A stretch of 54,193 nt of DNA from Candidatus Gastranaerophilales bacterium (lineage in GTDB: Bacteria > Cyanobacteriota > Vampirovibrionia > Gastranaerophilales > Gastranaerophilaceae), in the NCBI GenBank assembly GCA_017467305.1, contig JAFTSM010000046.1, forward strand, positions 1 through 54,193, in the 5' to 3' direction. Of the stretch, positions 15,942 through 19,414 are shown one piece after another; within the stretch, counting starts at the first letter, position 1; each line of letters opens with the position of its first letter. The position numbers and the translations under genes were made by a program. The notes beneath the pieces were generated by a model that saw nothing but the letters and a program-made list of their open reading frames with translations, made no database searches and was not told where the DNA came from.

Positions 15942-16184
15942 ATGACTGGTATATTTAGTACTAATCCATTTAGAAATGGAAAAAATTACAATCTTACAGA
16001 TAGGGAGCTGGAAGTTTTAGAACTTCTAGTACAAGGAAAAACAAATGCCGAAATTGCAGAAGAATTGTGTATTACAGTGCATACTATTAAAGTTTATGTT
16101 GCGAATATCTTGCAAAAGCTTAAAGTACGGGATAGAGTTCAAATTGTAATTAAAGCAATATCTGAAAAACTTGTTGACATTTGA
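15942..16184 (+). CDS. LuxR/GerE-type HTH-only transcription regulator
   Basis: 80-residue protein that is almost entirely a LuxR-family DNA-binding domain: LTDRELEVLELLVQGKTNAE (about 17-36), then IAEELCITVHTIKVYVANIL (recognition helix) and QKLKVRDRVQ. It has no receiver or autoinducer domain, like GerE. The ATG at 15942 is preferred to an upstream in-frame start at 15900 because GGAGG lies 6 nt before it and the extra 14 residues are not family-like. The stop codon lies inside a 13-bp inverted repeat. Neighbours suggest it controls itself and/or the Clp-repeat gene downstream. Confidence 0.85.
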   Translation: MTGIFSTNPFRNGKNYNLTDRELEVLELLVQGKTNAEIAEELCITVHTIKVYVANILQKLKVRDRVQIVIKAISEKLVDI

Positions 16185-16200
16185 TTACAAATGTCAACAA
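16171..16200. repeat. 13-bp perfect inverted repeat at the LuxR/Clp-repeat gene junction
   Basis: TTGTTGACATTTG (16171-16183), ATTA, CAAATGTCAACAA (16188-16200). It spans the stop codon of the HTH gene. No T-run follows, so it is not a classical terminator; it may be an operator or an attenuating hairpin. Its right half overlaps a weak promoter-like pair (ATTACA 16184-16189, 17 nt, TACTAT 16207-16212). Confidence 0.7.
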
Positions 16201-16205
16201 ATGTG

Positions 16206-16222
16206 GTACTATTTAATAGTAC
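16206..16222. repeat. second inverted repeat upstream of the Clp-repeat gene
   Basis: GTACTAT-TTA-ATAGTAC, a perfect 7-bp dyad 21 nt before the TTG start at 16243. It overlaps the possible -10 element and could be an operator. Confidence 0.5.
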
Positions 16223-16242
16223 ATTGTTTAAGGAATACAATT

Positions 16243-17613
16243 TTGTTTGAAAAGTTTACCGAAAAAGCTGTAGAAGTTGTAAAATCAGCACAAATATTGG
16301 CTATTGAGTATAATCACGAAAAAATTTACCCAGAGCATCTTTTATTGGCTTTATTAAATGATACGAATAGTATTGTTGTTAAGACTTTTTCTATATACAA
16401 AATAGAAATAGGTGAACTAAAAAAGGAAATTGAAACACTATTAAATAAGCGTGCTGTAATTAGACCTGCTGAGTTTGTTGTGTTTAGTGATTCTTCAAAG
16501 GATATTTTTTCTAGAACTTTAGAAATAGCTAAAGTTCTAGGTAACTCTTATGTAAAGCCAGAACATATTTTCTTGGCAATATGGGACTATCCTAAATTAG
16601 AATTAACAAGTGTTTTAAAAGAAAAAGGAATAGATGTAGATAAAATGAAATCAATGTTTTATAATATTTTATCTGCAAAGAAACCTAAAAAAATTAAACA
16701 TCCAGAGGCTATTGAAAAAAGAAGAAGAAATGATAAAAATGATAGCATTTTATCATTGATTGAAAATTCAGATAGCTCCAAAATATTTGATAGAGCAATT
16801 GCAAAGTTATCAACCTCGAATTATGAAATTTTAGGTACCGAGCAAATCATGCAATCTATTTTGGAGGATGATGAGTCTGAATTAACTAAAACTTTAGCTG
16901 AATTTGGTGTTACAGCTGAGACTTTTTCTACAAAGTTAAAAGAAATTTCATCAAGACAAGCCGAATTTGGAGATAAACAAATTATATTTACTCCTAATGC
17001 ACTTCAAACTCTAATGTATGCAATTGATATTATTAGAGAAGAAGGAAATGCTTCTATTTTGCCGGAACATATTATATTAGGTTTATTAAAATCTAAAAAA
17101 GGTATTGCATATAATATTTTAAAAGAATTAAATGTGAATGAATATCTTTTAGAAGATAAGATTATGCAACCTATGGAAAAACAAATAAATGAAACTTTAT
17201 ATATTATGAGACTTGCTAAGCAAGAAGCAAGAAGAATCGGAAACAGTGTTGTAGGTAGTGAACTAATACTTTTAGGAATTGTGTTAGAGTCAAATTCTAT
17301 AGCCGCTTCTGTACTTAGGGATTTAGGTGTAATAGTTAAAGATGCAAGAGATGTAATTGAAGAATTAATTGGATATTCTGATGATTATAATGCGTCTGAA
17401 ATAACATTTAGTCAAAGAGCTAAGTTAATACTTGAAGATGCGTGGAATATTGCAAAATCACAAAATAAGAAAAGAACTACAGCTGATGATTTGTTGATTG
17501 CAATATGTAACCAACCTGATTCTATTGCTATGAAAGCATTGACCAAATTAGGGGTAGACGCACTTGAAATCAGACAAGGTATTAAAAACAAGATTACAAA
17601 CTGCGGAATTTGA
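16243..17613 (+). CDS. ATPase-less protein with six Clp N-terminal repeats
   Basis: 456 residues, with no AAA+ domain, Walker motif or protease motif. It consists of three tandem ClpA/ClpC-type N-domains, each of two Clp repeats, at about 5-68, 82-143, 180-237, 248-308, 318-376 and 389-450. Diagnostic cores are IYPEHLLLALL, YVKPEHIFLAIW, ILPEHIILGLL and VVGSELILLGIV; the third module (RLAKQEARRIG... VIEELIG) is most like the N-domain of ClpC. The start is TTG 16243: it has AAGGA 8-9 nt upstream and yields MFEKFTEKAVEVVKSAQ, the standard ClpC N-terminus; the frame open further upstream is not family-like. N-domains bind substrates and adaptors, so an adaptor or client-binding role is inferred. 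Residues 145-170 form a basic linker. The 3' end overlaps rlhA by 50 nt. Confidence 0.85.
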   Translation: MFEKFTEKAVEVVKSAQILAIEYNHEKIYPEHLLLALLNDTNSIVVKTFSIYKIEIGELKKEIETLLNKRAVIRPAEFVVFSDSSKDIFSRTLEIAKVLGNSYVKPEHIFLAIWDYPKLELTSVLKEKGIDVDKMKSMFYNILSAKKPKKIKHPEAIEKRRRNDKNDSILSLIENSDSSKIFDRAIAKLSTSNYEILGTEQIMQSILEDDESELTKTLAEFGVTAETFSTKLKEISSRQAEFGDKQIIFTPNALQTLMYAIDIIREEGNASILPEHIILGLLKSKKGIAYNILKELNVNEYLLEDKIMQPMEKQINETLYIMRLAKQEARRIGNSVVGSELILLGIVLESNSIAASVLRDLGVIVKDARDVIEELIGYSDDYNASEITFSQRAKLILEDAWNIAKSQNKKRTTADDLLIAICNQPDSIAMKALTKLGVDALEIRQGIKNKITNCGI

Positions 17614-19414
17614 ACTTTTAGTCCCCGCAAATAATAAACATATAGCAATGCAGGCAATAAAAGCTGGTGCAGATGCTGTTTATATTGGCTATAGAAAGTA
17701 TGGCGCAAGAATTCAAGCTGGGAACACAATGGAAGACTTGGTTGAATTAATAGAGTTTGCCCATATTTATCGTGCCAAGGTTTATATTACGCTAAATACA
17801 ATTTTAAAAAATGAAGAAATAAAAAATATTGAAAAATTAATCTGGCATTTATATACAATAAAGGCAGATGGCATAATTATTCAAGATATGGGTATTTTAG
17901 AGTGTAATCTTCCACCTATTCCAATAATAGCAAGTACTCAATGTCATAATAATACGTTGGAAAAAGTTAAGTTTCTAGAAAATACTGGATTTAAGCGTGT
18001 TATTTTCCCTAGAGAAATTACGCTTGAAGAAATAAAAAATATAAGTCAAAACACAAATATAGAACTAGAAACATTTGTGCATGGTGCTCTATGTATGTCT
18101 TATAGCGGACAATGCTATCTAAGCTATGCAATTGGTGGTAGAAGTGCAAATCGTGGCGAGTGTGCTCAGCCTTGTAGAAAAAAATATTCGCTTAAAGATT
18201 CTGAAGGAAAATATATTCTTCGAGATAAACATATTTTAAGTTTAAAAGATTTAAATTTATCTGATAGATTAGAAGATTTAATATTATCTGGTGTCACTTC
18301 TTTTAAAGTTGAAGGTAGGCTAAAAAATGAATCTTATGTTGTTAATGTTACAGCATATTATAGAAAAAAACTTGATGAAATTTTAGAAAATTATGGTTTA
18401 AAGCGTGCTTCTTTAGGTAAGAGTGACTGTGATTTTGAACCAGATGTATATAGAACCTTTAATCGTGGCTATACAAATTTTTATTTAGATAAAGAAAAGA
18501 AAGATATAGGTACAGTTAGCTATACATCGTCATTAGGTGAATTTGTTGGTGTTGTTCAATCTGTTAAAAAGAATTATTTTTCTTTAAAAACAAATATTTT
18601 AAATAATGGTGACGGTATTTGCTTTTTTAATGACGAAAAAGTATTAGTAGGAACAAATATAAATAAAACAGAGGGTGATTTTGTTTTTCCATTATCCATA
18701 AAAGGAATAAAAACTGGTGTTAAGATATATAGAAATTATAATAAAGCGTTTGATGATAAGTTGAAAAATGCAAATTTATTAAGAAAGCTTGTCGCAAAAA
18801 TTAAAGTAAGAGAAACTTCCCTTGGTTATATTTTCTTTTTAACTGATGAAGAAAATAATACAGCGACATATATGCTTTCGAAAGATTTAGAGCTTGCACA
18901 AAATAAAGAAAAAGCACTTTCAATAATGCAAGTGCAATTATCAAAATCAGGAAATACAGAATTTAGAGTAAAAGAGACTGATATTAAAATTAAAAATGTT
19001 CCTTTTATTAAAGTTGCAAAAATAAATGAAATCAGACGTATTTTAACGGAAAATTTAAGAAAAATAAGAAGAAAAAATTATAAATATAACTACAGAAGAA
19101 CGCCTATAAATGTAGTTGATTATCCATTGAATAAAGTGGATTATCGTGCAAATATTTATAACGATAAAGCACTTGAGTTTTATAAAAAACGTGGTGTTTT
19201 TGTAGAAGAAATGGCGTTAGAAAATCAAAAAGATACTAAAAATAGAGAAGTAATGATTTCTAAATATTGTATAAAAAATCAACTAGGCTTATGTCCAAAA
19301 CAAACATCTGTGAAAAAGTACTCTGAACCATACGTCCTAATAGACGAATTCAACAAGGTACTCCTTGTTGAATTCAATTGTAAGGATTGTGTTATGAAAA
19401 TAAAAACTTGTTGA
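17564..19414 (+). CDS. rlhA: U32-family protein, RlhA-like (23S rRNA C2501 hydroxylase)
   Basis: 616 residues. N-terminal U32 domain beginning ELLVPANNKHIAMQAIKAGA, with HGALCMSYSGQCYLS and the following GECAQPCRKKY supplying four cysteines likely to bind an iron-sulfur cluster, then SFKVEGRLKNESYV. The C-terminal half has the extra domains found in RlhA (YdcP), which makes 5-hydroxycytidine in 23S rRNA with prephenate as a partner. Related U32 proteins (TrhP, UbiU) are shorter, so length favours RlhA, but the exact substrate is inferred. The TTG start (AGGGG upstream) lies inside the Clp-repeat gene (50-nt overlap). It ends flush against the convergent secreted-protein gene. Confidence 0.75.
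   Translation: MKSDKVLKTRLQTAEFELLVPANNKHIAMQAIKAGADAVYIGYRKYGARIQAGNTMEDLVELIEFAHIYRAKVYITLNTILKNEEIKNIEKLIWHLYTIKADGIIIQDMGILECNLPPIPIIASTQCHNNTLEKVKFLENTGFKRVIFPREITLEEIKNISQNTNIELETFVHGALCMSYSGQCYLSYAIGGRSANRGECAQPCRKKYSLKDSEGKYILRDKHILSLKDLNLSDRLEDLILSGVTSFKVEGRLKNESYVVNVTAYYRKKLDEILENYGLKRASLGKSDCDFEPDVYRTFNRGYTNFYLDKEKKDIGTVSYTSSLGEFVGVVQSVKKNYFSLKTNILNNGDGICFFNDEKVLVGTNINKTEGDFVFPLSIKGIKTGVKIYRNYNKAFDDKLKNANLLRKLVAKIKVRETSLGYIFFLTDEENNTATYMLSKDLELAQNKEKALSIMQVQLSKSGNTEFRVKETDIKIKNVPFIKVAKINEIRRILTENLRKIRRKNYKYNYRRTPINVVDYPLNKVDYRANIYNDKALEFYKKRGVFVEEMALENQKDTKNREVMISKYCIKNQLGLCPKQTSVKKYSEPYVLIDEFNKVLLVEFNCKDCVMKIKTC
19346..19375. repeat. 13-bp perfect inverted repeat inside the rlhA 3' end
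   Basis: GAATTCAACAAGG (19346-19358), TACT, CCTTGTTGAATTC (19363-19375). A near-ideal hairpin in coding sequence, about 40 nt before the rlhA stop. No T-run on either side. It may stabilise the transcript end or act as a factor-dependent stop between the two convergent genes. Confidence 0.7.

Follow-up and report, generated by a model that had tools for sequence, protein, structure and literature searches.

The window analysed here is a stretch of 54,193 nucleotides from a Candidatus Gastranaerophilales bacterium. On its forward strand, positions 16243..17613 carry an intact reading frame with a TTG start codon, which encodes a 456 amino acid long protein with six Clp_N repeats, referred to below as the hexa-Clp_N protein. 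A Shine-Dalgarno-like AAGGA (16230..16234, forward strand) is located 8 bases ahead of the TTG, and a similar element is found in 68 of 75 relatives. The upstream neighbour (15942..16184, forward strand) is a LuxR-type, HTH-only gene (GerE), for which an ATG start at 15942 is predicted from the sequence. Downstream, a gene of the U32 family (17564..19414, forward strand, start uncertain) overlaps the 3' end of the hexa-Clp_N coding sequence.

Positions 16183..16212 (forward strand) hold a promoter-like block with a putative extended -10 element, which reads GATTACAAAT ... ATGTGGTACTAT (ATGTGGTAAAAT in many relatives). In a comparison of 21 loci (20 distinct sequences) from the window's genus and the next genus, TTACAA was present in 18 and TGTGGTA in 14. 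The conserved block looks like the hexa-Clp_N gene's own promoter; it was absent from the output of a generic promoter-consensus scan. Two perfect inverted repeats with arms of 13 and 8 bases are also present upstream of the coding sequence, at 16171-16200 and 16206-16222. They were considered as a conserved operator, but this was dropped, as any repeat with arms of 7 bases or more occurs in just 3 of 20 other loci; the loci L011 and L115 have shorter inverted repeats (arms of 7 and 8 bases) roughly where the first one of the window sits. Among 75 loci of the gene, the start codon is TTG in 63, ATG in 9 and GTG in 3, and when one rule was applied to both groups, TTG starts were found in 63/70 for this gene versus 57/362 for other genes. 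The prevalence of TTG suggests that a low or tuned dosage may matter for the hexa-Clp_N protein.

A Pfam scan of the 456 amino acid protein identified Clp_N (PF02861) with E = 5.3e-51 and six individually passing stretches, while no match to the AAA families or to vWA was obtained and the two remaining rows (0.071 and 0.09) were non-significant. In the whole-genome profile search, for which the curated cut-off of PF02861 is 20.7 bits, the six repeats on the forward strand score 44.9 bits (repeat 1, 16288-16443), 31.4 bits (repeat 2, 16522-16647), 22.4 bits (repeat 3, 16819-16947), 36.1 bits (repeat 4, 17035-17166), 43.1 bits (repeat 5, 17215-17373) and 21.5 bits (repeat 6, 17491-17586); even the weakest, repeats 3 and 6, are still above the cut-off. 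The repeats are arranged in three pairs, all encoded on the forward strand. Pair 1 (16243..16665; residues 1-141, repeats 1 and 2) keeps the ClpC residues T6, K8, E31, F80, K85 and E106, and is followed by linker 1 (16666..16755; residues 142-171), in which an HPE motif at 153-155 is invariant in 32/32 aligned orthologues. Pair 2 (16756..17175; residues 172-311, repeats 3 and 4) is diverged and keeps the equivalents of E31 and E106, but has lost the K85 equivalent in 30/32 sequences. Pair 3 (17176..17592; residues 312-450, repeats 5 and 6) is closest to the ClpC N-domain, with a mean identity of 41.6% to its own ClpC; for pair 1 the mean identity to the ClpC N-domain is 31%.

The AlphaFold2 model, based on 32 aligned sequences (mean pLDDT 83, pTM 0.59), contains three eight-helix domains, one per pair, and an additional helix at residues 162-174. 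Model confidence is mostly high in pairs 1 and 3 and low at residues 141-180, including linker 1, which suggests that this linker is flexible. In a Foldseek search, most of the best 50 of 210 rows align about 130-150 columns, corresponding to one pair, to the N-domains of ClpC or other Hsp100 proteins, with 5gui as top match (1.3 A, target TM 0.88). Both rows with more than 500 columns have an rmsd above 25 A, so that a solved structure resembling the whole three-domain protein was not found among these best 50 of 210 rows. The fold of single ClpC N-domains (PDB 5gui, 5hbn, 2y1r, 3wdc) is matched with 1.1-1.8 A over 130-137 columns; unlike ClpC, however, the hexa-Clp_N protein lacks AAA modules and a middle domain, has three copies of the N-domain and evolves far faster. 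The profile score above the cut-off and the eight-helix double-repeat fold, seen in the model and by Foldseek, place the protein in the Clp_N family. It does not belong to the ClpC/ClpB Hsp100 ATPases, as the AAA+ modules are absent and the NCBIfam Clp models stay far below their cut-offs, and no NCBIfam model reaches its cut-off for the three-pair orthologue.

The initial annotation had proposed a stand-alone, ATPase-free protein of 456 residues with six Clp-N repeats in three pairs, and this architecture is borne out by the Pfam scan, by the repeat count of the genome profile search, middle repeats included, and by the three domains predicted for the protein alone. A frameshift that joins the frame to an AAA+ domain is also not present: 66 other loci, including six genes fetched twice, encode proteins of 447-466 amino acids, the next gene belongs to the U32 family, and the window's genome has separate genes for ClpC (815 amino acids) and ClpB (866 amino acids) on contigs other than that of the window. 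A contig edge of the same genome (G000:C75:3-65) also holds a Clp_N fragment that spans 21 profile positions.

Two repeats as weak as 22.4 and 21.5 bits could point to a decayed or spurious ORF without function. This explanation is contradicted by the conservation of the gene and is exceedingly improbable: an orthologue was matched in 141 of 146 sampled Gastranaerophilales genomes, its length is similar in the 66 other loci, and both linker motif and start are conserved. The hexa-Clp_N gene is thus a core gene of the Gastranaerophilales, an order of bacteria that live in the gut. In one of the 141 genomes (G134) the orthologue is cut at a contig edge, and in G118, which gave no orthologue match at first, the gene was found by a profile search and is cut by the contig end. 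Genome G135 (locus L268) encodes a complete 143-residue protein with an ATG start that equals pair 1 alone, a naturally reduced variant of the three-pair architecture. In three genomes, G007 (99% complete), G016 (87%) and G026 (88%), the gene was not found by profile search.

Outside the order, no orthologue was found in the sampled genomes (96 of the class; 109 of the class and phylum). The best E-values per genome there were no lower than 1.6e-46 (96 class genomes) and 9.6e-46 (109 class/phylum genomes), compared with 1.8e-159 or lower for the orthologue within the order, and the out-of-order matches listed cover approximately positions 321-451, i.e. the ClpC N-domain. Of the best 80 relatives among public genome records, 43 bear the title Gastranaerophilales, 6 are titled Melainabacteria and 5 cyanobacteria; the remainder are unnamed bacteria, records with other titles and records with odd titles (Fusobacterium, Acinetobacter, Heliobacteriaceae), the latter of which are taken for mislabelled bins. 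Viral contigs contain five weak relatives.

The gene is carried by the families f1-f7 of the order, and the origin of the three-pair form therefore most likely lies in the order's ancestor. Pairs 2 and 3 each form one clade with strong support in both trees that were calculated, and in the small careful tree they are sisters beside ClpC (82/94) and group with ClpC, not with ClpB. Pair 1 is monophyletic in the larger quick tree (support 82), while the small careful tree places ClpB within the pair 1 sequences. In the window's family, the mean identity among 15 genomes is 98.2% for the ClpC N-domain, but 51.7% for pair 1, 71.9% for pair 2 and 73.0% for pair 3, and linker 2 reaches 87.2%.

Both neighbours named in the initial annotation, the HTH-only gene and the overlapping U32 gene, are present, whereas the rRNA modification ascribed to the latter is unproven: the NCBIfam model that fits the U32 gene best, that of the tRNA hydroxylase TrhP, scores 174.9 bits and thus stays below its cut-off of 534. 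The U32 gene is constant in the window's genus (downstream in 18/18 further loci) and is also found in the next genus (L016, L123, L057), but no U32 match was obtained in 18 neighbourhoods from other genera and families (L058-L075; for two, less than 1 kb is covered downstream), and the HTH gene is located upstream in 10 of the 18 further loci of the genus. The two neighbours are therefore weak functional clues, and their rank as candidate functional partners was lowered, since both are local to a few genera.

A different association is seen in six of 20 neighbourhoods (L058-L062, L067), where the hexa-Clp_N gene is part of a run with a ClpX zinc-finger gene and genes for a protein of about 530 amino acids, RuvX, DUF1292, TilS and a phosphoribosyltransferase, the last of which is not displayed for L059. 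The zinc finger and DUF1292 were confirmed by a domain test for L061, while the identities of RuvX, TilS and the transferase are our own reading. In L061, the zinc-finger gene (2682-2957) encodes a stand-alone ClpX C4 zinc-finger protein of about 90 amino acids that is separate from ClpX itself, and a 533 amino acid protein (L061:2963-4564) without Pfam or NCBIfam match is encoded between it and the RuvX-like gene. Four further neighbourhoods of the window's family (L063-L066) are without the zinc-finger gene. Across the order, the stand-alone ClpX zinc-finger protein is encoded in 59/60 genomes, in frames of 88-129 amino acids. In this sample, no more than 6 kb separate its gene from the hexa-Clp_N gene in 37/38 genomes of the window's family and in 0/18 genomes of other families; the one exception within the family is the genome of the window itself (match at G000:C58:36396-36497).

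In Staphylococcus aureus ClpC, the N-domain is anchored by T7 and R9, which touch the adjacent middle domain, and by K85, which touches AAA1, and the T7D, R9A and K85A variants show MecA-independent proteolysis; R122 is a further named contact, whose mutant stayed MecA-dependent (from the available part of PMC12583610). In the aligned orthologues of the hexa-Clp_N protein, pair 1 keeps all three of these anchors, numbered here T6 (32/32 sequences), K8 (31/32) and K85 (30/32), with either K or R at the latter two positions. When K and R are treated as equivalent, this corresponds to retention scores of 1.00, 0.97 and 0.94 and a mean of 0.97, versus 0.34 over 140 positions (P = 0.0006 against random positions, a statistic that ignores shared descent). 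The means of this anchor set are 0.05 in pair 2, 0.34 in pair 3, 0.33 in the paralogues of family f8 and 0.53 in the ClpB control (P = 0.08). In ClpB, T6 is retained with 0.92 (11/12), K8 with 0.58 and K85 with 0.08 (1/12). Thus, part of the anchor signal reflects the fold, because ClpB also keeps T6 and two glutamates (11/12 and 12/12), and it is K85 that, judged from the alignments, carries most of the specificity to ClpC. The K85 equivalent is present in 32/32 sequences in pair 3. R122, which was left out of the anchor test set, is not kept in pair 1, where K or R is found in just 14/32 rows.

The ClpC of the order itself was also inspected. Its middle-domain motif QEFE is present in 13/15 sequences, and for this reason the order's ClpC probably forms a resting state too. 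The AAA1 position that pairs with K85 (D356 in S. aureus) is occupied by P, S or N in the 15 ClpC sequences of the order; this position was mapped via the Bacillus sequence. A co-evolution of ClpC position 356 with the hexa-Clp_N gene was considered and dropped, as P or Q is also found in the ClpC of other families of the class. ClpP is represented in the window's genome by two full and two partial matches. Profile searches found ClpS in 0/60 and MecA in 0/60 genomes of the order, with positive controls in both cases.

Based on these data, the hexa-Clp_N protein may be a trans-acting regulator or adaptor of ClpC, which imitates the N-domain of ClpC and consists of three spare ClpC-type N-domains. 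This is the reading that we favour, although we hold it tentatively and with less than even confidence. The suggestion of the initial annotation, a multivalent adaptor, decoy or stress sensor for ClpC, is partly supported: with the affinity of pairs 2 and 3 to ClpC in the tree, the anchors kept in pair 1 and ClpS and MecA found in 0/60 genomes, an adaptor, decoy or regulator of ClpC is reasonable, while the neighbouring genes on which the suggestion also relied contribute little. In the proposed mechanism, pair 1 would, on its flexible tether, trade places with the N-domain of ClpC at those contacts to the middle domain and AAA1 by which the resting state is maintained. Pairs 2 and 3, with a short and conserved linker between them, would hold a substrate or partner. 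The hexa-Clp_N protein would thereby bring cargo to ClpC and free its brake, and would do so in bacteria whose order yielded neither ClpS nor MecA in the 60 genomes searched. Against this regulator reading stand the loss of R122, the P, S or N at the partner position D356, the three genomes in which the gene was not found and the lack of an adjoining clpC in 20 neighbourhoods. Homology to ClpS or MecA does not place the protein among the ClpC adaptors, because Clp_N is the sole significant family in it.

The main rival is a decoy or sponge, in which the free N-domains would bind ligands of the ClpC N-domain, such as toxic peptides, phage proteins, substrates or adaptors, and thereby withhold them from ClpC, in the way that mycobacterial ClpC2 acts on cyclomarin A. 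ClpC2 is described as a cyclomarin A sponge whose ClpC-like domain also mediates repression of the clpC2 gene itself, and F2, F80 and E89 are named as critical for cyclomarin (available part of PMC10030653); K85 is a further cyclomarin contact (available part of PMC12583610). Like the hexa-Clp_N protein, ClpC2 (PDB 8ad9) is ATPase-free with a ClpC-type N-domain; it is matched by the family profile through pair 1 and also matches in fold. DNA binding, as in the autorepression by ClpC2, is conceivable for the hexa-Clp_N protein as well. The two differ in that ClpC2 has one such domain and an N-terminal dimerisation domain (available part of PMC10030653), whereas the hexa-Clp_N protein has three N-domains without any further recognised domain and begins with the N-domain itself, as seen in profile and model. 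Three domains in a single chain would fit a sponge, and in pair 1 F2 is kept in 28/32 and F80 in 32/32 sequences, in addition to K85; E89, however, is kept in only 2/32, and the F2/F80/E89 set is not significantly retained (P = 0.08); with K85 added, P is 0.02. A set of F2, Q17, F80 and K85 (P = 0.0001 in pair 1) was given no weight, as it was picked after the counts had been seen and Q17 is unsourced, and a five-residue set with P = 0.00005 in pair 1 is high in ClpB too (P = 0.0015). The pairs also differ from ClpC and are only 52-73% identical among the 15 genomes, against 98.2% for the ClpC N-domain, which argues against the decoy and makes it rather unlikely, even if it deserves to be taken seriously.

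Fast divergence of the pairs relative to ClpC, together with the lack of a clpC next to it in the 20 neighbourhoods inspected, would also fit an ATP-independent holdase or scaffold, whose N-domains bind unfolded or partner proteins without involvement of ClpC. For such a protein there is no obvious reason to keep K85 in pairs 1 and 3, a residue that ClpB does not keep, and we consider this explanation unlikely.

A third possibility is a reader of phosphoarginine, in which glutamates at five of six sites would bind arginine-phosphorylated proteins. Glutamate is indeed found at the E32 and E106 positions in most rows of five of the six sites (29/32 and 28/32 in pair 1, 30/32 and 31/32 in pair 2, 32/32 and 13/32 in pair 3). 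The same glutamates are kept in ClpB (11/12 and 12/12), so that they mark the fold, and this lowered the reading to a very small probability. The arginine kinase family (PF00217) was found in 0/60 genomes of the order, yet it was also without a match in the controls, and this result therefore shows little. The Bacillus subtilis control genome gave no match for either PF02861 or PF00217, and so the region of mcsB and clpC, which are neighbours in B. subtilis, may be absent from this copy.

Several other Clp_N proteins outside a Clp ATPase are known. Plastid ClpT1 and ClpT2 (PDB 4y0b for ClpT1, whose record names a double Clp-N motif protein, and 4y0c) are likewise Clp-N-only accessory proteins, but have one pair each; they are matched by the family profile via pair 3, with 57.5 and 51.9 bits. 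Plant ClpT1 binds ClpC2 and ClpD and raises the ATPase activity of ClpD (available part of PMC4243950), which offers a precedent for the regulator or adaptor reading. NTP-dependent conflict systems also contain repeated Clp_N outside a Clp ATPase, and there the repeats are fused to vWA (available part of PMC7159879), for which the hexa-Clp_N protein has no match.

Closer to the window, family f8 of the same class, probably the Obscuribacterales, has large genomes with ATPase-free poly-Clp_N proteins whose pairs are often in tandem. They differ in having one to nine pairs, in being partly arranged in paralogue clusters and in not keeping the anchors as a set. In the larger tree, 5 of 48 f8 pairs are located beside the hexa-Clp_N clades with modest support (one beside pair 1 at 80, one beside pair 2 at 84 and three beside pair 3 at 84). 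ATPase-free Clp_N gene clusters adjoin a putative topoisomerase I gene at L222:6449-14699 (genome G193) and L223:5569-12858 (G226); single proteins in these loci have 1620 and 1375 amino acids, with 11 and 10 Pfam stretches and, by a custom profile, nine and eight pairs, respectively. In two f8 genomes, a Clp_N region is fused to a Ser/Thr protein kinase domain (L227:2140-3561 and L228:900-2348; 473 and 482 amino acids). The initial annotation knew of no protein with this tandem form, but the many examples in f8 and the ClpN repeats fused to vWA that were mentioned in 2020 (available part of PMC7159879) show that it is not singular. ATPase-free Clp_N proteins, including tandem ones in f8, are thus already known; for the three-pair orthologue of the order, no description was found among the matches listed from open-licence PubMed Central papers.

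Returning to the reading of a ClpC regulator or adaptor, a broader view is conceivable, in which the usual ClpC adaptors were replaced in this order by an N-domain mimic with a two-domain substrate receptor, and in which, given the free copy of ClpX's zinc-finger recruiting domain in 59/60 genomes, both ClpC and ClpX are run by detached copies of their own docking domains. A detachable N-domain would here take the anchor sites of ClpC and pull ClpC out of its resting state. This wider proposal is doubtful.

The N-domain of ClpC helps to hold the resting state, and partners or toxic peptides activate ClpC by binding there (available part of PMC12583610). If the regulator reading is true, a regulator can arise in evolution as a copy of the very part that acts as the brake, as the hexa-Clp_N protein consists of nothing but ClpC-type N-domains. 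The protein would then be a ready-made ClpC modulator, and the control of ClpC in these non-photosynthetic relatives of cyanobacteria would become testable.
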